Made by a program: the position numbers and the translations under genes. Below the pieces are notes generated by a model that searched no databases, was not told the DNA's origin, and saw only the letters and a list, made by a program, of their open reading frames with translations. Shown one piece after another: positions 4,789-51,994 of a stretch of DNA of 52,310 bases (the first letter of the stretch is position 1; each line of letters begins with the position of its first letter). Source of the DNA: Paludibacter sp. (GTDB taxonomy: Bacteria; Bacteroidota; Bacteroidia; Bacteroidales; Paludibacteraceae); assembly GCA_017882285.1 (NCBI GenBank), contig JADGPS010000011.1, positions 1 to 52,310 of the forward strand. Reading direction: 5' to 3'.

Positions 4789-7101
4789 TTAATTTAATGC
4801 AATTTCATCCACAAAAAGGTAACCGGGTTTTCCTTTTCCCACGTGCCAGTCGGGAATCAATTTTTCTGAAGTAACGATTACTTTCACGTAACGGGTATGA
4901 ACGGCATTAAAATTCAGTTTGTGTGTAAAAATTCCATTCGGATCCTGTTGTTTCATTGCAGGATAATCTTCCGAAGCTACGCGGGTGAAGTTCACCCCAT
5001 CATTTGAAGCTTCAACAGCAAAACTGCGTGCATTGAAAAGCCAGTCTCCTTGGCTTACAAAGGTATTGATTTCAGCAGATTGAACATCCGTAACTTTTTG
5101 TAAATCAATTACGACTTCCAGATCATTGCCATAAAAAGCAATCCAACTACCGGCTTTGTAATTGTTGTTTCCTCTCAAACCGTCCACTAAAGTATTGATT
5201 CCTTTGAATTCATAGGACTTATTCACAGGTTGTAAAGCTGTAATCGGTTTCAGACTGGCTTTATTGAAAGAAATATCCTGTGACAACAAACGGCTGGATT
5301 CACTGCCTCGAAATATAATTGCCTGTAATTTTGCATTTTCTTTGATCTTCAACGTCCCCGAATAAACCGGAGATTTTTCAGATGGAGTTGTTCCATCGAG
5401 TGTATAATAAATTGGTGCGCTATCCATCGTTGACAACGAAACATCGAGTGTTCCATCTGTAGGATTGGAAGTGAAATCAGCTGAAATGTCATACAAATGT
5501 TTGGCGTAATTATATTGGTATAATTTATATAAATCAATGATTTTCGGTACACGAATCAAGAAATCGGCATAATTTTTTTGCTCTGCTTTTGTCCATTGTA
5601 CTTCACAAAGTGCGGCCATACGTGGCAACACCATGTATTCTGCATGTTTAAAAGTAGGAATATATTCTGTCCATAGATTGGCCTGTGCTCCAATAATGTA
5701 TTTTTTTTCATCGTCAGAAAGTGATGCTGGCTGAGGATCCCAGCTGTAAACTGTTTTTACAGTTGAATATCCACCAATAGCCAACGGTTCCGATTCTGTG
5801 TCATTTGTTTGATAATGATCAAAATAAACATACGAATTGGGTGTCATAATCACATCGTGTTTTTGTTTGGCGGCTTCAATGCCTCCACCCATTCCGCGCC
5901 ATGACATAATCGTTGCATTCGGAGCAATGCCGCCTTCCAGAATTTCGTCCCAGCCAATCATTCTGCGACCTTTTTCATTCAGAACCTTTTCGGCATACGA
6001 AATCACATAGCTTTGCAAACGTTCTTCGGCAGTATGTTTAGCATCGGCAACCAAGCCAAGGTCTTTGATGCGTTGCTGGCATTTCGGGCATTTTTGCCAG
6101 CTGGTTTTCGGACATTCATCACCACCGATATGGATATATTTCGATGGAAAAATTTCAGTCAGTTCAGTCAGTACATCTTTGATAAAAGTTAGCGTTTTAT
6201 CGTTGCCAGCACACAGCACATCTTCGGAAACACCCCATTGACGCCAGATAGCATACGGACCTCCGGTACAGCCTAATTCGGGATAAGCAGACAAAGCTCC
6301 CAACATGTGACCCGGCATATCAATTTCCGGAACAATGTTAATGTAACGGTCTTTGGCATAAGCTATGACATCCTTAATCTGTTCCTGAGTGTAAAAACCT
6401 CCGTAAGGAATGCCATCATATTTTCCTGTGTTTTTCCCAATTACAGTCTCAGGTCTTTTCGAACCGACTTCTGTCAAAAGCGGATATTTTTTAATCTCAA
6501 TTCTCCAACCCTGATCATCGGATAAATGCCAGTGAAAATTATTGATGTTATGCAAAGCCAGAATATCGATATAGGTTTTCACTTCATCAACAGTAAAGAA
6601 ATGGCGTGAAACGTCGAGATGCATTCCACGATAGACAAAACGCGGTGCATCGTTTATAACAGCTGCGGGCAATTCAACCTTAGCAGCTTTGACAACCGGA
6701 ATGGACTTACGCAGAGTCTGAATTCCGTAAAAAACGCCATTTTCTGTTGAGCCAGAGATGACAATTTGTTTGGAATTCACGTCGATTCGATAGGCTTCAG
6801 GATTTCCGTTTTTTAATTCCAGATTCAGAATAATCGACCTCTTGTTTGACTTTGTTGTGGTTTTGAACTTTATACCGGTAATATCTTTCATATATTGAGC
6901 TAAAAATGCAGCATTTTTCTGCATTTTTTTGTTTCCGGCAGGATAAACAATTTTCACTGAGCCATCTAATTGAAAGGCTTTTCCATTTAGTAAATTAATT
7001 TCATTCGGCAGTGGAACGATTCGATAATTTATCTCCGGACTGGTGGCAAAGAGACTTGTAAGATACAATAATCCTGCAAGTTGAAGAAGAGTTTTTCGCA
7101 T
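4789..7101 (-). CDS. Secreted beta-N-acetylhexosaminidase, GH20
   Basis: This 770-residue exported enzyme removes terminal beta-linked GlcNAc or GalNAc from glycans. An N-terminal signal peptide (1-20) is followed by a GH20b-type alpha/beta domain (about 25-150), then the GH20 catalytic barrel (about 155-505). The barrel carries RGMHLDVSRHFF, NNFHWHLSDDQGWRIEIKKYP and the catalytic HIGGDECPK near residue 325, with the Asp-Glu pair used in substrate-assisted catalysis. After the barrel come a chitobiase-C/HEX_C-like segment (YYTLDGTTPSEKSPVYSG) and a C-terminal F5/8-type C carbohydrate-binding domain. There is no lipobox, so it is probably periplasmic or exported. It is divergent from the GPH symporter operon across a long spacer and could share its control. 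Identification is strong; the natural substrate is unknown. Confidence 0.93.
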   Translation of the reverse strand: MRKTLLQLAGLLYLTSLFATSPEINYRIVPLPNEINLLNGKAFQLDGSVKIVYPAGNKKMQKNAAFLAQYMKDITGIKFKTTTKSNKRSIILNLELKNGNPEAYRIDVNSKQIVISGSTENGVFYGIQTLRKSIPVVKAAKVELPAAVINDAPRFVYRGMHLDVSRHFFTVDEVKTYIDILALHNINNFHWHLSDDQGWRIEIKKYPLLTEVGSKRPETVIGKNTGKYDGIPYGGFYTQEQIKDVIAYAKDRYINIVPEIDMPGHMLGALSAYPELGCTGGPYAIWRQWGVSEDVLCAGNDKTLTFIKDVLTELTEIFPSKYIHIGGDECPKTSWQKCPKCQQRIKDLGLVADAKHTAEERLQSYVISYAEKVLNEKGRRMIGWDEILEGGIAPNATIMSWRGMGGGIEAAKQKHDVIMTPNSYVYFDHYQTNDTESEPLAIGGYSTVKTVYSWDPQPASLSDDEKKYIIGAQANLWTEYIPTFKHAEYMVLPRMAALCEVQWTKAEQKNYADFLIRVPKIIDLYKLYQYNYAKHLYDISADFTSNPTDGTLDVSLSTMDSAPIYYTLDGTTPSEKSPVYSGTLKIKENAKLQAIIFRGSESSRLLSQDISFNKASLKPITALQPVNKSYEFKGINTLVDGLRGNNNYKAGSWIAFYGNDLEVVIDLQKVTDVQSAEINTFVSQGDWLFNARSFAVEASNDGVNFTRVASEDYPAMKQQDPNGIFTHKLNFNAVHTRYVKVIVTSEKLIPDWHVGKGKPGYLFVDEIALN

Positions 7102-7721: not shown

Positions 7722-9131
7722 ATGGGAAACGCAAATGTAAAATTATCTTTCAAAGAAAAAGTAGGATACAGTTTGGGCGACACTGCCTCCCATTTTGTTT
7801 GGGACATGGTCGGCTTTTGGCTATTGTTTTTTTACACCGATGTGTATGGCATTTCGGCTGCTGCTGCCGGAACAATTATGTTGGTGGCGCGTTTTTGGGA
7901 TATGGCAATTGACCCTGTTATTGGAATAGTTTCCGATAGAACCAATACTCGCTGGGGGAAATTCCGGCCGTATATTTTATTCGGAGCAATTCCGTATGCC
8001 GTGTTGGCAATTTTGACTTTCACCACGCCGAATTTTGGCGAAGTAGGCAAAATCATTTATGCCGGTGCAACCTACGTTCTTTTAATGACGGCTTATGCAG
8101 CTATCAATTTGCCGTATTCGGCTTTGGGTGCTGTTATGACTGACGACACCTACGAACGTGCCGGACTGAATACGTATCGATTCATCGCCGGTTTCTCCGG
8201 ACAATTTATTGTTACCGGACTGGCACTTACTTTGGCAGAGTTTTTTGGTCACGGCAATAAAGCACAGGGATTTCAATATACCGTTTTGATGTTTGCTGTT
8301 CTAAGTTTGATTTTCTTTTTTATTACATTTCAAACAACCAAAGAACGGGTTCAACCGCCCAAAGAACAGAAAAATTCGTTGAAAGAAGATTTGAAAAACC
8401 TCTTTGCCAATAAAGCCTGGCGTATTTTGGCCATTGTCGGTATCATTTCGTTTATTATGTTTGCCATGCAAAATGCAGCGATTGCCTATTATTTTAAATA
8501 TTATCTTGGACGCGAAAATAATGTCCAATTATTTAATGTGATAGGAACTGTGGCTCTGATTGTTGCATTGCCTTTATCCAAACCATTGGCCAAAAAGTTT
8601 GGCAATAAAAATGTATTTATCGGAAGTTCGTTGATTTCGGGTTTGTTTTTTATACTGATTTATTTAATGAGTGCAGTTAATAAAACCACTGTGTTAAATT
8701 TGAATTTTGTAGTTATTACTTTACCAAATGTAAATCTAACTTTAATTTACGTCTTTAATATTATAGCAAAAATGGCTTACGCTCCCGCAGTTCCGTTACT
8801 TTGGACAATGATTGCCGACTCAGCCGATTATGGCGAATGGAAAACCGGCCGCCGGGCAACAGGTTTGTATTTTTCGGCTGCGGTTTTTGCTCAAAAAGCA
8901 GGTTGGGGAATTGGAGCTGCCATTGCCGGTTGGATTCTTGCCTTTTCGTCGTTTGTTCCCAATGTAGTTCAAAACGAAACTGCAATTACCGGTATCAAAT
9001 TGCTGGTTTCGGTGATTCCTGGCATTCTCTATATGTCGTGTGCTATTTTCATGATTTTCTACAAAATCGATTCGAAAACTACCGATTTAATGAAAAAAGA
9101 TTTGGATGCTAAACGTGCTTTGGAACAATAA
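7722..9131 (+). CDS. GPH-family sugar:cation symporter (MFS)
   Basis: This 469-residue inner-membrane protein has about 12 hydrophobic segments and belongs to the glycoside-pentoside-hexuronide:cation symporter family (MelB/XylP-like). Characteristic parts are the opening KVGYSLGDTASHFVWDMVG, the cation-site region FWDMAIDPVIGIVSDRTNTRWGKFRPYIL with the DP..G..SDRT..RWGK signature, and MIADSADYGEWKTGRRATGL in the second half. Such proteins import oligosaccharides or glycosides with Na+ or H+. The gene starts the operon and is followed after 33 bases by the 1135-residue GH94-like gene, so the transported sugar is probably that enzyme's substrate. The exact sugar cannot be read from sequence. 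Confidence 0.9.
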   Translation: MGNANVKLSFKEKVGYSLGDTASHFVWDMVGFWLLFFYTDVYGISAAAAGTIMLVARFWDMAIDPVIGIVSDRTNTRWGKFRPYILFGAIPYAVLAILTFTTPNFGEVGKIIYAGATYVLLMTAYAAINLPYSALGAVMTDDTYERAGLNTYRFIAGFSGQFIVTGLALTLAEFFGHGNKAQGFQYTVLMFAVLSLIFFFITFQTTKERVQPPKEQKNSLKEDLKNLFANKAWRILAIVGIISFIMFAMQNAAIAYYFKYYLGRENNVQLFNVIGTVALIVALPLSKPLAKKFGNKNVFIGSSLISGLFFILIYLMSAVNKTTVLNLNFVVITLPNVNLTLIYVFNIIAKMAYAPAVPLLWTMIADSADYGEWKTGRRATGLYFSAAVFAQKAGWGIGAAIAGWILAFSSFVPNVVQNETAITGIKLLVSVIPGILYMSCAIFMIFYKIDSKTTDLMKKDLDAKRALEQ

Positions 9132-9164
9132 TATTTAGTTAATATTTTATTTTAATATTTAGAA

Positions 9165-12100
9165 ATGAGTAATTTATTTATTGGAAACAATCCTGTAATT
9201 TCAGGAAAGCAAAAAGTGAAAGGACAATTTGTCCAAATTGATGATGAAAAATATTATCAGATAAAAAATTACGACTACATGTTGCCGTTTTTTATCAGTC
9301 TGGCGAGTGATTCCAATCATTGGATGTATATTTCGAGTACCGGAGGTTTGTCTGCCGGCCGTAAAAATCCCGATCAGGCACTGTTTCCATATTACACCGA
9401 CGATAAAATCAACGAATCGTCCGAAATCACTGGTAGCAAGACCATTTTACATGTTACCAAAGCCGGAAATCAATATTTATGGGAGCCATTTTCCGACCGG
9501 AATAAAGGCATTTATACCGTCGAACGCAACATTTCCAAAAGCACAATCGGTAATAAAATTGTTTTCAGCGAAAAGAATCTTGATTTAGGATTGACTTTCA
9601 GTTACGCATGGATGAATGCCGACGATTTTGGTTGGATTAAGAAAAGTGAGTTAAAAAATGACACCAGTGAATCGATGGAAGTTTATATGGTCGATGGTTT
9701 ACAGAATATTTTGCCTTCAGGCATCGATAAATTTACTCAAAACACATTTTCTACCCTTGTGGATGGTTATAAAAAAACCGAATTGATTGAAAATTCTCCG
9801 TTGGCACTATTCCGCATGGAGGCAATTTTGGTCGACCGGGCTGAGCCGAGCGAATCGCTCAGAGCCAATACCGTTTGGAATACAGGACTTGAAAATGCAA
9901 CTTATTTATTGAGTTCATCGCAACTGGATTCTTTCAGAAACGGTCAAAAACCAACGTATGAAACAGAAGCAAAAGGAGTTCGAGGAGCCTTTTTTGCCTG
10001 TGCCGAAATTAATCTGAAAGCTTCGGAAGCAAAAAACTGGTATTTTATAGCCGAAGTAAATCAGGATGCGGCTCAGGTGAATAATTTGCTGAAATTAATT
10101 TCCGAAACTAAAAATATTGCAACCATTCTCGAACAAAATATTGAAAAAGGAACCAAAAACCTGCAAAATATTGTGGCTCAGGCCGACGGAATTCAACAAA
10201 CAGCTGACGAAAACGGCGTTGCACGTCATTTTTCCAACGTGTTATTTAACACCATGCGCGGTGGTATTTACAGCGAAAATTACACCATTTATGCTGCCAA
10301 TTTCAGCCAGCACGTAAAACATTTTAATGTTGCACTTTGGGAAAAACAGGCTAATTTTCTGACAAAACTACCTGTCTCAATTGATTATTCGGAACTTGAC
10401 AAGTTGATTCACGAACAAAACGATGCCAATTTATACCGGTTGTTTCAGGAGTATTTGCCGTTGACTTTCAGCCGCCGCCATGGCGATCCGAGCCGTCCGT
10501 GGAATTCGTTCGATATCAAGGTTAAAGATGAAAATGGAAATAAATTGCTCGGATATCAGGGAAACTGGCGCGATATTTTCCAAAACTGGGAAGCGTTATC
10601 GTTGTCTTTTCCCGGTTATATCAATGGAATTATTGCCAAATTTGTGAACGCAACCACTGCCGATGGTTACAATCCGTACAAAATTACCGAACAGGGAATT
10701 GACTGGGAAACCATTGAACCTGAAAATCCGTGGTCGAATATTGGTTATTGGGGCGATCATCAGATTATTTATTTATTGAAACTCATGGAGGTTTCACATA
10801 ATCATTATCCCGAAAGTCTGCTTTCATGGCTCGACAAGGAAATGTTTGCCTTTGCCAATGTGCCTTACAGGCTGAAAAGCTACAACGAAATTGTTGCCAG
10901 TCCAAAAAATTCGATTCGTTTCGATGCCAAACTTCATCATTTCATTGAAAAACTCGAACAAACCTTTGGTTCTGATGCCCGATTGATCCTGACTTCAACA
11001 AACGAAGTAAAATTAGTGACTTTCACAGAAAAAATACTGGCCACGTTATTGGCAAAATTAAGTAATTTTGTTCCCGAAGCCGGCATTTGGATGAATACGT
11101 TGCGCCCGGAATGGAACGATGCCAATAATGCGTTGGTTGGAACAGGAGCATCTATGGTAACTTTGTATTACATGCGGCGGTTTGTGACTTTTATGCAGGA
11201 ACTTTACAAAAGTTCACCGCTTGAAAAATATACTGTTTCTGAAGAAATGTATTCGTTTTTCGTAGAATTATTTAATGCATTCAAATCTCATGAATTTTTA
11301 CTTGAAAAAGGTTTTGACAATATACAACGACGCCAGATTGCAGACGAATTAGGTAAAGCCGGTGAAAATTACCGAACTAAAATTTACAGCGAATCTTCAT
11401 CAAAAAAAGAAGTTCTTGCTAAACAGGATTTAAAGTATTTCTTTGAAGTTGTATTGAAATTTATCGATCAATCTATTTCGGTAAACAAACGCGAAGACAA
11501 ACTCTATCACGCTTATAATCTGGTTAGTTTCACCGATAATGAAGTTGCTATCCGTCATTTGTACGAAATGCTTGAAGGTCAGGTTGCGGTCTTGACTTCA
11601 GGAAAGCTAACACCGGTTGAAGCCGTTGAATTGCTCGATGCTTTACGCAACAGTTCGCTTTATCGCGCCGATCAGCTGAGTTATATTTTATATCCAAATA
11701 AGAAATTGCCGTTATTTTTAGATAAAAACCACATTCCATCTGAAGACGTAAAACGCATTCCGCTTCTTCAACAATTAATTGCAGCCGGAAATACCAACAT
11801 TATTTGCAAGGATAACAAAGGAGAATTTCATTTCAATGCCAATTTCAATAATGCCGGATTCCTGACTGTCGCTTTAAATAAATTAAAAGCAGGTTCTGCT
11901 TTTGAAGTTTCTGATAACGAACAACTTAAAATCGAACAATTATACGAAAAACTGTTTGACCATCAATCATTTACAGGTCGTTCAGGGACTTTCTATAAAT
12001 ATGAAGGGTTGGGTTGCATTTACTGGCACATGGTTTCGAAACTGTTGTTAGCAATAGGCGAAAATATTAAAAAAGCTATTTCAGAAAAAGCTGATACTGA

Positions 12101-12572
12101 AATCATTGAAAAGCTTAAACACCATTATGCCGAAGTAAAAACCGGTATTGGAGTTCATAAATCTCCGGCAGATTATGGTTCATTTCCTTTTGATCCGTAT
12201 TCACACACACCCATGATGGCCGGCGTTCAGCAACCGGGTATGACAGGTCAGGTGAAAGAAGATATTATCAGTCGCTTTTTCGAATTGGGCGTGCTGGTTG
12301 AAAATGGTTATTTGATGATAAAACCGATGATTCTGAAAGCGGAAGAATTTATTCAACCAACAAACGAGAATCCACATCCGCATTTGTCATTCAGTTATTG
12401 TTCCATCCCTTTTATTTATCAAATAGACGGAACAGAAGGAATGGAAATGATTTATATCGATGGAAAAACAGAAAAGACAATCGATTATTCGTTAAGTAAA
12501 GCTCAAAGTCACGCTGTTTTCAACCGCGATAAGAGGATTGATAAGATAATTGTACATTTAAAGAAACTATAG
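9165..12572 (+). CDS. Large GH94-like (clan GH-L type) putative glycoside phosphorylase or hydrolase
   Basis: This 1135-residue protein has no signal peptide and should be cytosolic. It is not a family I can name with certainty. The N-terminal 300 or so residues look like the beta-sandwich domain of GH94-type enzymes (SSTGGLSAGRKNPD, YLWEPFSDRNKGIYTVERN, VDGLQNILPSG). The middle looks like an (alpha/alpha)6 barrel with SRRHGDPSRPWN near residue 436, GYQGNWRDIFQNWEAL, ENPWSNIGYWGDHQIIYL and RPEWNDANNALVG near 648-660. The last resembles the DWND segment holding the catalytic acid of cellobiose phosphorylases. A helical insertion (about 690-830) and a later KYEGLGCIYWHMVSKLLLAIG and PFDPYSHTPMMAG region follow. 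The gene sits 33 bases behind a sugar symporter, which fits intracellular phosphorolysis of an imported oligosaccharide. GH149, GH161 and an unclassified family are alternatives. The terminator at 12591-12634 follows it. Confidence 0.6.
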   Translation: MSNLFIGNNPVISGKQKVKGQFVQIDDEKYYQIKNYDYMLPFFISLASDSNHWMYISSTGGLSAGRKNPDQALFPYYTDDKINESSEITGSKTILHVTKAGNQYLWEPFSDRNKGIYTVERNISKSTIGNKIVFSEKNLDLGLTFSYAWMNADDFGWIKKSELKNDTSESMEVYMVDGLQNILPSGIDKFTQNTFSTLVDGYKKTELIENSPLALFRMEAILVDRAEPSESLRANTVWNTGLENATYLLSSSQLDSFRNGQKPTYETEAKGVRGAFFACAEINLKASEAKNWYFIAEVNQDAAQVNNLLKLISETKNIATILEQNIEKGTKNLQNIVAQADGIQQTADENGVARHFSNVLFNTMRGGIYSENYTIYAANFSQHVKHFNVALWEKQANFLTKLPVSIDYSELDKLIHEQNDANLYRLFQEYLPLTFSRRHGDPSRPWNSFDIKVKDENGNKLLGYQGNWRDIFQNWEALSLSFPGYINGIIAKFVNATTADGYNPYKITEQGIDWETIEPENPWSNIGYWGDHQIIYLLKLMEVSHNHYPESLLSWLDKEMFAFANVPYRLKSYNEIVASPKNSIRFDAKLHHFIEKLEQTFGSDARLILTSTNEVKLVTFTEKILATLLAKLSNFVPEAGIWMNTLRPEWNDANNALVGTGASMVTLYYMRRFVTFMQELYKSSPLEKYTVSEEMYSFFVELFNAFKSHEFLLEKGFDNIQRRQIADELGKAGENYRTKIYSESSSKKEVLAKQDLKYFFEVVLKFIDQSISVNKREDKLYHAYNLVSFTDNEVAIRHLYEMLEGQVAVLTSGKLTPVEAVELLDALRNSSLYRADQLSYILYPNKKLPLFLDKNHIPSEDVKRIPLLQQLIAAGNTNIICKDNKGEFHFNANFNNAGFLTVALNKLKAGSAFEVSDNEQLKIEQLYEKLFDHQSFTGRSGTFYKYEGLGCIYWHMVSKLLLAIGENIKKAISEKADTEIIEKLKHHYAEVKTGIGVHKSPADYGSFPFDPYSHTPMMAGVQQPGMTGQVKEDIISRFFELGVLVENGYLMIKPMILKAEEFIQPTNENPHPHLSFSYCSIPFIYQIDGTEGMEMIYIDGKTEKTIDYSLSKAQSHAVFNRDKRIDKIIVHLKKL

Positions 12573-12648: not shown

Positions 12649-14208
12649 TTAATTTATCAAAATCTTTCTTGTGGTTGATTCTCCATTTTGTGAAATTACA
12701 CGTACGAGACAGATGCCTTTATTCCAGTTTGATACCGGAATATTTAAATTGTCGGAGGAGATGCGTTGTGAATATATTTTCTCTCCTGTTAACTGATAAA
12801 TTTCAATAGAAGCTATTGAACCATGAATGACAATTTCTTTTTCTGCGGAAAAATAATACACTTTCAAATCTGTTTGTGAAATTGAAGGAGTTGCAGAAAT
12901 CGCGGAGTATTCGAATGCTCCAAGGTCGGGGGCCAACCCGGAGAACGCAAATCCCACATCAGTTCCTATATCAATCAATCCGCTTGTTGGAGTTAAATGA
13001 AGCAACGTGATTTCGGGTAGCGAACCGTCACTTTGACGCGGATTTAGCATTTGTGTGAAATCCAAACTTGTAAAATCAGTCGAGACACAAGAAAATCCGG
13101 TGTTCCATGAATTATAAGCTTGTGTAACCGAATTGCTGTTGAAACTGTTAGAACCTTTACTGCTTAATGATGCACAATTTTTGATAATCAACGTGCCATA
13201 AGTACTATTAGAGAATCCGTAATTATTTCCATTGTTATAACTGGTACAATTATAAATGGTCATTACACCGGCATTGTTATTTTGATCAAAACCCTTTACT
13301 TTGTTTCCTACAGAAATACAATTGTGAAGTGTGGCATTGTGTAAAGTATAAAGTCCTCCCAATTTGAATCCATTTCCGTTTCCATAATTGGTCATCATAT
13401 AACGACCTGAGGAATTTTTGAATTGATAAAACCAACTTGCACTATCGGTTTTAAATCGAATATTATCTGTCATGTCAAATGAAGCTGGAGCCATTGAATA
13501 ACACCAGCAACTGTCATACACCGTGTTTCCGACCTTTTGATAACTGTCCCACCCGTCATCTCCATTTCTCCACGAACGACATCCTTTATAGGTATTGGTT
13601 CCGGTGTTAGTATATTGTTTGTCGGCAAAACCATCTGCGTTTCCACCATAATCCGGACTGGTTATTCCACCCGATTTGTAATCGAAATTTTCGTAGGAGT
13701 CGCAATTAAGAATAAAATTATTACTTCCGGTTTTCATTTGAGTTCCCGAATCACAATTCCATCGGGTAGTGCAATTTTCAATCGTATTATTGCTTCCGGT
13801 TACCTGCAATCCATTATCGCCGGCTCCCTGAATAATAATTCCTTTAAAATGAACATAACTCCCTGATATTTTAATTCCCTGATTGCTGCTGTTATATGGC
13901 TCTGTACGAAAATCAAATATTGGTGTTTCGCCCGGATAATTCACTATATGAATGAAGCCTGTTGCTGATCCTGATTTTGAGTACTGTTGAATGCTGTTGA
14001 AACTATACATGCCGCCACGAATAATCAACGAATCTCCTCCAGTTAAAGATTTACCAATAGCAGTTGTAAAGCTTAACGGATCAGAAATGCTTCCACTTGC
14101 TGTAGAAGTGCCGGTTGGAGAAACATAGTAAGTTGTTGCAGAAGCTGTGCCGGTAATTGTCGTACAACTCAGGACAATTAATAGTAATAGAGTAATTGAT
14201 TTATTCAT
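12649..14208 (-). CDS. Secreted pectate lyase-like protein (PL9 type) with T9SS sorting domain
   Basis: This 519-residue protein has a signal peptide (about 1-24, ending ASA), a right-handed beta-helix (about 30-430), and a C-terminal domain of about 80 residues. In the helix, NADGFADKQ near residue 190 and RNGDDGWDSY near 219 match the calcium-binding Asp cluster of PL9 pectate lyases, in which an ADGF segment precedes a DDGWD motif by about 25 residues. These enzymes cleave polygalacturonate by beta-elimination. The C-terminal part (VYYFSAEKEIVIHGSI, GEKIYSQRIS, KGICLVRV, STTRKILIN) looks like a type A sorting signal of the type IX secretion system, so the protein is probably displayed or released at the cell surface. 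The nearest genes are not obviously pectin-related. Confidence 0.82.
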   Translation of the reverse strand: MNKSITLLLLIVLSCTTITGTASATTYYVSPTGTSTASGSISDPLSFTTAIGKSLTGGDSLIIRGGMYSFNSIQQYSKSGSATGFIHIVNYPGETPIFDFRTEPYNSSNQGIKISGSYVHFKGIIIQGAGDNGLQVTGSNNTIENCTTRWNCDSGTQMKTGSNNFILNCDSYENFDYKSGGITSPDYGGNADGFADKQYTNTGTNTYKGCRSWRNGDDGWDSYQKVGNTVYDSCWCYSMAPASFDMTDNIRFKTDSASWFYQFKNSSGRYMMTNYGNGNGFKLGGLYTLHNATLHNCISVGNKVKGFDQNNNAGVMTIYNCTSYNNGNNYGFSNSTYGTLIIKNCASLSSKGSNSFNSNSVTQAYNSWNTGFSCVSTDFTSLDFTQMLNPRQSDGSLPEITLLHLTPTSGLIDIGTDVGFAFSGLAPDLGAFEYSAISATPSISQTDLKVYYFSAEKEIVIHGSIASIEIYQLTGEKIYSQRISSDNLNIPVSNWNKGICLVRVISQNGESTTRKILIN

Positions 14209-25521: not shown

Positions 25522-26841
25522 TTATCTTCTCTTTGATTCATTGTTTGACGAACGACTTTCAGTTTTAGTTCCCGATCTCTGTTCGTTACTACGCGTGTTT
25601 TCTGATTGTCTTTGCACTGCAGGTTTTGATTCAACGGTTCTAGTTGGTTGATTTACAATAGGTGCAGTTCTTGTGTTTGTGTTTCCGCGATTAACAGAAT
25701 TGTAATTTCTGTTACCATTATCGGTATTTGGGCGTGGTTGATAAGTATTATTGCGTTGAATATTATTATTTACATCCGAGCTTCTGTTATTTGTTGGAGG
25801 TGTATATTTTTGATTATTTGTATTGCTCTGATTCCGATAACCTCCGGAATTTTGCCAACTTCTATTACCCGATTCATTATTGTTTGTTCTGTTTTGAAAA
25901 GTATTTCCATTTCGGGTACTATTCGAATTCCTTGAATCGGATGGTGTAGTGTAAGTTCTTTGATTTGAATTACGTTGATTCAAACCGTTCGATTGAGAAT
26001 TTCTTTGTACGTTTGAATTGTCCCAGGTTCTGGTCGGTCTGGTCCCGGTAGAATTTCCTTGATAAGATTGTCGGGTTTGATTATTTTGTATTACTCTATT
26101 CCGATTGAACTCAAAATCACGTTTATTGCGAATATTTTCATTTCGAGTGCTGAAATTACGTTCAGGATATCTGTTGCCATAATCGTTACGACTTATTGAT
26201 TGATGAATTCTTTGGGCATAATTGTCAAAATGGTTTTGTGTGTAATAGTAGTTGTGATTATAATTAATATGATTTCGTATATTACTCAAATACATATTAA
26301 TACCAATCGGACTATGATATCTGTAATAGCTTGGATAATAACCCCAATAATAGGGTGAATTCCAGCTATAATAATTTGATCCCCAAAAGAATGAAAAAAT
26401 AAAAGGAGTGTACGAATAAGTCGGTTCAATAACATAATTGGCTCCGTAAAGATAGGGATCGCCAACAATCTGAACGGTTGGATTGTTGTTCTGATCTTTT
26501 TCAACTACAATTGATGCCACATCCTGATAAGCATTTTTGTCTAAAACTGCCTGAATAACAACTACATGAACATCATTTTCCATCTTTTCAATTACACGTA
26601 AATAATCTACTTGTCCGTCATTATTCAAATCCAGGTTTGAAATTCCACTGTCATAATCATTCAGTTTCTGTTCAAATTCTTCCATATTTTTTGATTCCCC
26701 AAACGCAGTAGCCACAGCTTTTAAATCAAGATTGTTGCTAATGTCATTGTTTTGAGCTTCAACTGTAATCCTTTCTTGTGCCATAAATTGAGTGGTTGCA
26801 ATTAAAATAACCACTAACAGGCTTGTTACTTTTGTTTTCAT
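25522..26841 (-). CDS. Exported Asn/Arg/Ser-rich hypothetical protein
   Basis: I do not recognise a named family. The 439-residue protein has a signal peptide (about 1-21, ending TQFMAQE). Residues 25-150 form a compact domain with the calcium-loop-like DLNNDGQVDYLRV and a VVVIQAVLDKNAYQDVASIVVEKD segment, a domain seen in other Bacteroidota exported proteins. A Tyr/Trp-rich stretch (about 150-185, SYTPFIFSFFWGSNYYSW) follows. The last 210 residues are low complexity, dominated by Asn, Arg, Ser, Gln and Thr, and are probably disordered and very basic. A function cannot be given; cell envelope binding to an acidic polymer is a guess. The gene is alone and ends at a good terminator. Confidence 0.75.
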   Translation of the reverse strand: MKTKVTSLLVVILIATTQFMAQERITVEAQNNDISNNLDLKAVATAFGESKNMEEFEQKLNDYDSGISNLDLNNDGQVDYLRVIEKMENDVHVVVIQAVLDKNAYQDVASIVVEKDQNNNPTVQIVGDPYLYGANYVIEPTYSYTPFIFSFFWGSNYYSWNSPYYWGYYPSYYRYHSPIGINMYLSNIRNHINYNHNYYYTQNHFDNYAQRIHQSISRNDYGNRYPERNFSTRNENIRNKRDFEFNRNRVIQNNQTRQSYQGNSTGTRPTRTWDNSNVQRNSQSNGLNQRNSNQRTYTTPSDSRNSNSTRNGNTFQNRTNNNESGNRSWQNSGGYRNQSNTNNQKYTPPTNNRSSDVNNNIQRNNTYQPRPNTDNGNRNYNSVNRGNTNTRTAPIVNQPTRTVESKPAVQRQSENTRSNEQRSGTKTESRSSNNESKRR

Positions 26842-49593: not shown

Positions 49594-49601
49594 TATATTT
49601 G
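49594..49601 (+). promoter_or_regulatory. Bacteroidota -7 promoter motif for the GH130 operon
   Basis: TATATTTG matches TAnnTTTG, 30 bases before the ATG at 49632. No -33 TTTG is at the usual spacing, which fits a promoter that needs an activator such as the AraC-type output of the adjacent sensor. Confidence 0.45.
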
Positions 49602-49631
49602 ACCTCGATAAATCTTAAAACAAAATACATT

Positions 49632-50678
49632 ATGGATATTGCAAAACGAAGTAACAGCAATCCTTTGCTTCGACCCGGTGATTTGACTGCCAGAATAAAA
49701 GGAATGGAAATTACCTGTCTGCTCAACCCCGGCGTTTTTCGTATGAATGGCAAAACCTGGCTCTTGCTGCGCGTTGCCGAGCGTCCCACACAAATTGAAA
49801 ACAAAATCAGTTTTCCTATTTATAATAATGACAAAATCGAAGTGCTCAGCTTTGATAAAAACGATCCGCAACTTGATGCCACCGATCCACGTATCATCCT
49901 TTACAAAGGCAAAAACTATTTAACCACACTTTCTTATCTTCGACTGGTTTGCAGCGATGATGATATTCATTTTTACGAAGATCCTGCTTACCCGCCAATT
50001 TTTGGTAAAGGTAATCTGGAGGCTTTCGGTATCGAGGATTGTCGCGTTGCTACTATGGAAGATGGTTTTTACCTCAGTTTTACCGAAGTTTCATCGGTGG
50101 CCGTTGGAGTTGGTCTTATCATTACTAAAGATTTTCAACATTACGACCGTAAAGGAATGATTTTTCCTCCTCATAATAAAGACAGTGCATTGTTCGAAGA
50201 AAAAATCAACGGTATGTACTACGCTTTTCACAGACCAAGCAGCCCCGAATTAGGTGGCAATTATATATGGCTCGCACAATCACCCGATCGCTTGCATTGG
50301 GGAAACCACAAATGTGTAGCCATTACACGCGAAGGAAGCTGGGATTCGGCCCGCGTTGGAGCAGGTGGTGCGCCGATTAAAACATCCGAAGGTTGGTTGG
50401 AAATTTACCATGGAGCCAATAAAGATCATCGCTATTGTTTAGGTGCTTTATTGCTTGATTTGAATGATCCATCCAAAGTGTTGGCCCGAAGTATAGAACC
50501 AATAATGGAACCGATCGCCGAATACGAACAAACAGGGTTCTTTGGCAATGTTGTTTTCACTAACGGACATTATGTAAAAGGCGATACGATAAAAATATTT
50601 TACGGAGCAAGCGACGAAGTTATTTGTAGTGCTGAGTTTTCCATTACCGAAATTTTGAAATCATTAAAAAAGAACTAA
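49632..50678 (+). CDS. GH130-family beta-mannoside phosphorylase or mannosidase
   Basis: GH130 enzymes phosphorolyse or hydrolyse beta-linked mannosides. The 348-residue protein lacks a signal peptide, so it probably acts in the cytosol. Five-bladed propeller features include LEAFGIEDCRVATMEDGFYLSF with the catalytic Asp region, HNKDSALFEEKINGMYYAFHRPS, YIWLAQSPDRLHWGNH, GAGGAPIKTSEGWLEIYHGA and GFFGNVVFTNGHY plus IKIFYGASDEVI at the end. The usual EDPR is EDCR here. Whether it uses phosphate cannot be settled by eye. The frame opens at a TTG (49599), but the ATG at 49632 follows the -7 motif and was chosen. Its stop overlaps the next start by one base (TAATG). Confidence 0.88.
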   Translation: MDIAKRSNSNPLLRPGDLTARIKGMEITCLLNPGVFRMNGKTWLLLRVAERPTQIENKISFPIYNNDKIEVLSFDKNDPQLDATDPRIILYKGKNYLTTLSYLRLVCSDDDIHFYEDPAYPPIFGKGNLEAFGIEDCRVATMEDGFYLSFTEVSSVAVGVGLIITKDFQHYDRKGMIFPPHNKDSALFEEKINGMYYAFHRPSSPELGGNYIWLAQSPDRLHWGNHKCVAITREGSWDSARVGAGGAPIKTSEGWLEIYHGANKDHRYCLGALLLDLNDPSKVLARSIEPIMEPIAEYEQTGFFGNVVFTNGHYVKGDTIKIFYGASDEVICSAEFSITEILKSLKKN

Positions 50679-51994
50679 TGGCAAATAAATTAACCGGAGA
50701 ATTTACCTTCTTTAGAACTCAACCGAAAAACATACGTACACTATTGATTACCAATATGCTGTATGCACTGATATTGCCCATCATCGAAATTTTTGTTGGA
50801 GCATATATCATGCGTAACACCGGAAATTCATCCTACGTGGCTATTTATCAACTTTGTATGTATATAGGAGTGGTGAGTACTTCGATACTGAACGGTGCTT
50901 TGCTGAAGATTTTCAAAGTAAATATGCTTTATAGTTTTGGGATCATTCTAACCGCTATCTCCTTAATGGTGATGATGTTTGTACAATCGTTGGGAATCGT
51001 GCAATTGGGAATCGCCGGTTTTGCCTTGGGTGCATCAACCGGTTTTTTCTGGACTAACCGTTATTTGCTGGCACTCAATTCGACAAATGATGCAAACCGG
51101 AATTATTTCTTCGGATTGGAATCCTTTTTCTTCTCTCTTTGGAGCATTGTCATTCCATTAATTGTAGGAGTATTTTTGGCAAGTCTCGATGGAAAAGTGT
51201 GGTTTGGTCATGCCATTAGTGTAAATATGGGTTATCAGATCATTACAGTGGTTGTATTTTTTATCGCTATCGGTGCCTGTCTGGTTTTAGCAAAAGGAGA
51301 TTTTACCAATCCGGTTCAAAAGAAATTCATTTATTTCCGCTATCATAGTTTGTGGCAAAAATTCCTTGCTTTAGCCAGTCTGAAAGGAATGGTGCAGGGA
51401 TTTTTAGTTACGGCTCCTGCCATTTTAGTGATGCGCCTTGTTGGAAATGAAGGCTCGCTGGGTTTGATTCAGGGAATAGGCGGAGGTATTACAGCTATCA
51501 TTGTTTATGTGTTGGGACGGGTAGCAAAACCCGAACACAGAATGAAAATATTCGGATTTGGATTATTGGTGTTTTTTATCGGAACATTGTTTAATGGAAT
51601 TATGTTTTCGGCTTTAGGAGTCATCATTTTTGTACTTTGTAAAGTATTGTTCCAACCGCTTCACGATTTGGCGTATTTTCCTACTTTGATGAAAACGATA
51701 GACGCAGTTTCGGGCATTGAAAAACGAAATGAATATGCATATATTTTAAGTCATGAAGTCGGATTATTCTTTGGACGTGCTTTAGGTATGATTTTGTTTA
51801 TTTCACTGGCTTATTTTGTTTCTGAAAACTTTGCATTGAAATATGCCTTAATCATTGTGGCGGCTTTACAATTGATTTCGTTGCCATTGGCAAAACATAT
51901 TATTAAGGAAGTTGATACGAAATACACAAAGAAATCAGTGAATCCAAAAATTGAAACCGTTGTTAAGCCTATCGTGGTTGAGTTAAAAGATTGA
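50678..51994 (+). CDS. MFS transporter, probable oligosaccharide importer of the GH130 locus
   Basis: This 438-residue inner-membrane protein has about 11-12 hydrophobic segments and the general MFS layout, with VQLGIAGFALGASTGFFWTNRYLLAL and a large central loop after the sixth helix (AKGDFTNPVQKKFIYFRYHSL). The second half contains LVGNEGSLGLIQGIGGGITAIIVYVLGR. It does not look like the GPH symporter earlier in the window. The start codon overlaps the GH130 stop by one base, so the two are cotranslated. Import of the GH130 substrate is the simplest role. The C-terminal tail is polar and variable. Confidence 0.82.
   Translation: MANKLTGEFTFFRTQPKNIRTLLITNMLYALILPIIEIFVGAYIMRNTGNSSYVAIYQLCMYIGVVSTSILNGALLKIFKVNMLYSFGIILTAISLMVMMFVQSLGIVQLGIAGFALGASTGFFWTNRYLLALNSTNDANRNYFFGLESFFFSLWSIVIPLIVGVFLASLDGKVWFGHAISVNMGYQIITVVVFFIAIGACLVLAKGDFTNPVQKKFIYFRYHSLWQKFLALASLKGMVQGFLVTAPAILVMRLVGNEGSLGLIQGIGGGITAIIVYVLGRVAKPEHRMKIFGFGLLVFFIGTLFNGIMFSALGVIIFVLCKVLFQPLHDLAYFPTLMKTIDAVSGIEKRNEYAYILSHEVGLFFGRALGMILFISLAYFVSENFALKYALIIVAALQLISLPLAKHIIKEVDTKYTKKSVNPKIETVVKPIVVELKD

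Follow-up and report, generated by a model that had tools for sequence, protein, structure and literature searches.

A GH149-family phosphorylase gene paired with a GPH-family symporter gene in Paludibacter sp.

We analyzed a 52,310-nucleotide stretch of DNA from Paludibacter sp. (contig JADGPS010000011.1), referred to below as the window, in which a putative sugar transporter gene is followed on the same strand by a gene encoding a protein of 1135 residues (Table 1). Both open reading frames were present as claimed in a preliminary description made from the sequence alone, and the ORF list places them on the plus strand with a gap of 33 bases (9132-9164). The product of the upstream gene matched the Pfam-A family PF13347 (MFS_2; E 2.5e-113, 379.3 bits against a cut-off of 27) and also scored above the cut-off of the NCBIfam GPH model TIGR00792 (383.8 bits against 231.35), which agrees with its earlier labelling as a GPH symporter. 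Neither a laminarinase gene nor a SusCD pair was found beside the two genes among the flanking genes scanned. The neighboring GH20 gene (4789-7101), a pectate-lyase-like beta-helix gene (12649-14208), galM, and galK were excluded from the unit because they lie on the opposite strand and no link to it was found.

Table 1 Genes and active-site motifs of the symporter-phosphorylase pair. Base coordinates of the motifs are derived from residue numbers; motif roles follow the available portions of PMC6771811.
Feature	Position	Strand	Basis
GPH-family (MFS_2) cation:sugar symporter gene	7722..9131	+	469 aa, ATG start; PF13347, TIGR00792
GH149 beta-1,3-glucan (oligosaccharide) phosphorylase gene	9165..12572	+	1135 aa, ATG start; NF058639, PDB 6hq6, 6hq8
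RD motif R469, D470, sugar 1-phosphate recognition	10569..10574	+	aligns with Pro_7066 R470/D471; role from PMC6771811
Catalytic WND motif W650, N651, D652	11112..11120	+	D652 aligns with Pro_7066 D653; role from PMC6771811
E947-H955 stretch, donor and phosphate site	12003..12029	+	align with Pro_7066 E951, H959; roles from PMC6771811

Other features of the window were recorded along the way. The beta-helix protein at 12649-14208 (minus strand) carries a type IX sorting tail, and its best NCBIfam model, PelN, reached 183.8 bits, well under the 740-bit cut-off. A second phosphorylase-plus-transporter pair is located at 49599-51994 (plus strand) and consists of a GH130 protein (PF04041) and an MFS_1 transporter, with the last base of the GH130 gene overlapping the start of the MFS_1 gene. 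The best NCBIfam model for the GH130 protein was NF050092, at 408.6 bits under a cut-off of 550. An ORF of 439 residues at 25522-26841 (minus strand) was matched by no NCBIfam model within an E of 0.001 and by no Pfam family within 1e-5.

The 1135-residue protein matched no Pfam-A family at E up to 10. This covers PF17167, the Pfam model of GH94, as well as GH65 and GH15, both of which have models in Pfam-A. The protein did match NF058639, an NCBIfam equivalog model named '1,3-beta-D-glucan phosphorylase, GH149 family', reaching 1597.3 bits over residues 15-1132 where the cut-off is 1150. A PDB sequence search at E up to 10 returned three matches. The bacterial beta-1,3-oligosaccharide phosphorylase Pro_7066 (6hq6) aligned end to end with residues 11-1131 at 1168.9 bits, while 9qqk (GH161) and 9h8v (deposited as a cellobiose phosphorylase) scored about 58 bits each, so that by sequence GH161 is not the closest family. 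At the sequence level, the alignments to 6hq6 cross the regions of Dom 1 and Dom 2, the two domains inserted in Pro_7066, with printed gaps of at most 2 residues. We also aligned the protein with 27 homologues taken from the best 80 of 592 named ones; identity to the window protein ranged from 46 to 74%, and all 28 aligned sequences matched NF058639 at E up to 0.001.

The preliminary description had found no family that it could name for this protein and had left its substrate as an unknown oligosaccharide. Neither statement holds, as the protein is a clear member of GH149, a characterized family whose assayed enzymes act on beta-1,3-gluco-oligosaccharides according to the available text of PMC5827456. 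A match of this kind is what the preliminary description had itself named as refuting its claim. The protein likely seemed nameless because no Pfam-A model matches it, whereas NCBIfam and PDB entries do. We accordingly rejected a new family, and the missing Pfam-A match represents a gap in that library. The families that had been put forward for comparison fared differently: GH149 was recovered by its profile, GH94, GH65, and GH15 gave no Pfam match, and GH161 was reached only by the weak sequence similarity above. The product of the downstream gene is almost certainly a GH149 phosphorylase and, taking the substrate from the family, most likely acts on beta-1,3-gluco-oligosaccharides. One supposedly unknown phosphorylase is explained in this way, by an assignment that is routine to specialists.

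We built an AlphaFold2 model on the 28-sequence alignment (mean pLDDT 83.6, pTM 0.84). The model consists of a strand-rich N-terminus (to about residue 300), a helical linker, a large and mainly helical domain, and a strand-rich C-terminus (from about residue 1043), with pLDDT falling below 50 in the catalytic loop (649-651) and around the donor site (937-950). Foldseek matches to the model were re-examined with VIA-align. The top match was 6hq8 (Z 46.0, rmsd 2.9 over 1103 residues, with 1138 residues in 6hq8, and 47% identity), followed by GH161 (Z 31.2) and a GH94 laminaribiose phosphorylase (Z 28.1). The barrel was also shared, at a greater distance, by one chain from GH65 (Z 16.2) and one glucoamylase of bacterial origin (Z 15.9). 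In Foldseek itself, 6hq8 had a TM score of 0.92. The Foldseek alignments to GH161 and GH94 had rmsd of at least 8.4, which leaves this GH149 structure as the one that fits closely from end to end. The protein is thus predicted to have a GH94-like fold along the full length of Pro_7066. The GH94-type phosphorylase features noted earlier from the sequence are in keeping with this model.

To the extent available, PMC6771811 lists the active site of Pro_7066 as W651, N652, D653 (the predicted catalytic residue), R470, D471, H959, and E951. All seven residues are identical in the window protein (W650, N651, D652, R469, D470, H955, and E947) and invariant across the 28-sequence alignment. A WND segment near residue 650 had already been picked out in the preliminary description, which proposed to look for an aspartate in the catalytic position at about 652, and both were found at exactly these residues.

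The surface site that binds laminarihexaose in Pro_7066 was conserved to a much lesser degree. Of its eight residues, seven were mapped by script, and one was identical (E994), one was conservatively replaced (K831 to R), and five were changed. The surface-site residue R1062 of Pro_7066 aligns by eye with K1058 of the window protein. This loss is not unusual, since the motif is reported in the available part of PMC6771811 to be less conserved in bacterial GH149 sequences with lower identity to Pro_7066. Because the site is mostly replaced, the chain-length behavior of the window enzyme may differ from that of Pro_7066.

We then looked at how widely the pair is distributed. The observation goes well beyond chance: of 60 near genomes, 18 had GH149 relatives (E up to 0.001), and so did 33 of the 295 genomes searched in the order, with the window's own genome counted in both; one of the 33 was detected solely at E 6.5e-4. 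Adjacency was scored on aligned extents and required a spacing of between -30 and 300 bases, a GPH score of at least 150 bits, and at least 700 bases of flank. By this rule, a GPH gene was located directly upstream on the same strand at 13 of the 15 testable near-genome loci including the window (12 of 14 without it). The two loci without one were L013, where the gap had been 314 in an earlier stop-to-stop frame count, and L017. All near-genome loci came from the window's genus except L014, which belongs to another family of the order. At L004 the GPH gene is cut off at the contig end and the flank was too short for counting, and L006/L019 and L015/L020 are, judged by score and coordinates, apparently the same places entered twice.

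The pairing was less frequent among more distant loci. An upstream GPH gene was found at 10 of 75 testable named loci (from the best 80 of 592 homologues) and at none of the 27 testable among 28 further loci of the order, L114 with its 62% identity being among these. Tight upstream pairing is therefore a trait of the window's genus and some relatives. A conserved pairing across Bacteroidota, as had been suggested for follow-up, was rejected in that general form: it holds just in the near relatives and in a minority of others. Directly downstream, a GPH gene was found at 0 of 17 near-genome loci, 0 of 77 named loci (again from the best 80 of 592), and 4 of 25 further order loci; the association thus recurs in another gene order at a minority of other loci. 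The GPH gene lies directly downstream of the GH149 gene at L120, L126, L127, and L135, all from the same order.

We searched the same genome with profiles for other carbohydrate genes and found six GH16 stretches, ten GH3, two PGM_PMM_I, 18 SusD, and one GH94. The sole match to PF17167 was a different gene, encoding 811 residues on contig C25 (L113; 544.5 bits). A GH17 search of the genome gave no matches, and as the control likewise gave none anywhere, this result is uninformative. On contig C97 (L142, 1-14000), a one-strand run encodes an MFS_2 transporter, two GH16 proteins, a protein with a sorting tail, a GH2 protein, and a PF11790 glycanase that carries a CBM6 and a sorting tail, and a SusD gene adjoins the run. 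One of the two GH16 proteins had 28 PDB sequence matches (E up to 1e-10), many of them named laminarinase or beta-1,3-glucanase, and its best match was 5nbo, which we take to be a mixed-linkage glucanase. Contig C60 carries GH16, GH2, SusD, and TonB-plug genes, and one of its GH16 proteins had a single PDB match, LamCAT, at 9.2e-11. The GH16 stretch on contig C15 was set aside, as a frame scan at E up to 1e-8 showed just a carbohydrate-binding domain there. The run on C97 is plausibly a candidate beta-1,3-glucan utilization locus that would feed the pair. Because this locus has an MFS_2 transporter of its own, import need not use the window symporter.

These genes can be placed in a proposed pathway. 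The GH16/SusD-type locus, whose genes are present but unlinked to the pair, may carry out the extracellular step. The window symporter is probably the importer, and beta-1,3-gluco-oligosaccharides are a reasonable guess for its cargo; it would, in our assessment, quite likely carry them across the inner membrane. By analogy with assayed relatives, the GH149 enzyme would then split off one unit of the chain as alpha-glucose 1-phosphate, using inorganic phosphate. D652 is the presumed catalytic acid in this phosphorolysis, a role taken from the GH94/GH149 literature. The glucose 1-phosphate would enter glycolysis via phosphoglucomutase, for which the two PGM_PMM_I genes are candidates. The import-and-phosphorolysis module of the preliminary description remains plausible in its role, and the symporter neighbor is real, but its 'unknown oligosaccharide' is wrong given GH149. 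A more specific version is possible, yet we lean slightly against it: a minimal two-gene scavenging unit in the genus and a few relatives, apart from a PUL, in which a dedicated GPH symporter imports intact beta-1,3-gluco-oligosaccharides and the GH149 enzyme, having lost its surface glucan site, prefers short chains.

Two alternatives concern the enzyme itself. The shared fold and the weak GH161 similarity (58 bits) would also suit a phosphorylase of another family or linkage, either a GH94 of the cellobiose/cellodextrin type or a GH161, acting on another beta-glucan. The probability of this is close to negligible, with 1597.3 bits to the GH149 model and 1168.9 bits to Pro_7066 against about 58 bits for GH161, a fold Z of 46.0 for GH149 against 31.2 and 28.1, and no Pfam match. 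It is also very improbable that the protein is a GH149 enzyme with a shifted preference for acceptor or linkage, perhaps toward mixed-linkage beta-1,3/1,4 oligosaccharides that the symporter would then carry. Such drift would fit the mostly replaced surface-site residues, the 47% identity to Pro_7066, and the best PDB match of the C97 GH16 protein, the presumed mixed-linkage glucanase 5nbo. However, the catalytic and donor-site residues are kept at seven of seven positions, and surface-site variability is itself reported for GH149 in the available part of PMC6771811.

The remaining alternative touches the import step alone and is compatible with the GH149 assignment: the symporter could serve another sugar while the oligosaccharides reach the cell by some other transporter, for instance the MFS_2 protein of C97. 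The presence of that transporter and the finding that most distant GH149 loci are without an adjacent GPH gene point in this direction. We nevertheless consider it unlikely, given the common strand, the 33-base gap, the upstream GPH gene at 12 of the 14 other testable near-genome loci, and the published GH149 clusters with a pfam13347 transporter (available text of PMC5827456). Our preferred reading remains a GH149 phosphorylase that is probably supplied by the neighboring symporter.

Among known enzymes, Pro_7066 (6HQ6, 6HQ8) resembles the window protein in its end-to-end alignment, its fold (Z 46.0), and all seven active-site residues, and differs in the 47% identity and in the laminarihexaose surface-site residues, mostly replaced in the window protein. 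The GH161 beta-1,3-glucan phosphorylase (9GY9, 9QQK) shares the fold at Z 31.2 over 880 residues but shows 18% identity in the fold alignment and about 58 bits by sequence. The GH94 laminaribiose phosphorylase PsLBP (6GGY, 6GH3) is similar in fold (Z 28.0-28.1) but has 12% identity, and GH94 has no Pfam match in the window protein. In the portions of PMC6771811 available, the active-site motifs are described as conserved between GH94 and GH149, and two inserted domains of GH149 as missing from GH94. The founding paper (PMC5827456, in part) reports that both of its assayed GH149 enzymes, EgP1 and Pro_7066, act on beta-1,3-gluco-oligosaccharides, and excerpts of PMC6484121 list the two as assayed beta-1,3-glucan phosphorylases. 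The latter excerpts also give GH149 acceptors from glucose upward, whereas the GH161 enzyme PapP needs at least 2 glucose units and does not phosphorolyse laminaribiose.

GH149 genes near transporter genes have been described before. The available text of PMC5827456 reports Type II GH149 clusters, mainly in Alteromonadales, that contain genes for a TonB receptor, an MFS transporter of pfam13347, GH16, and GH17. It also places GH149 in Bacteroidetes PULs. Laminarin loci of Formosa (PMC6246565) and Muricauda (PMC13188888) carry GH149 and MFS transporters, according to the accessible parts of both papers, and PMC11573768, a full-text match for GH149 with symporter, mentions Na-symporters in PULs generally in the part available. 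The window pair differs from the published GH149 clusters (PMC5827456, PMC6246565, PMC13188888) in standing without adjoining glucan genes, with the GH16/SusD locus on a separate contig, and is like them in having an MFS transporter in the GH149 locus. The GH149 gene and its GPH symporter gene form an unremarkable pair, of a type that the literature already contains.
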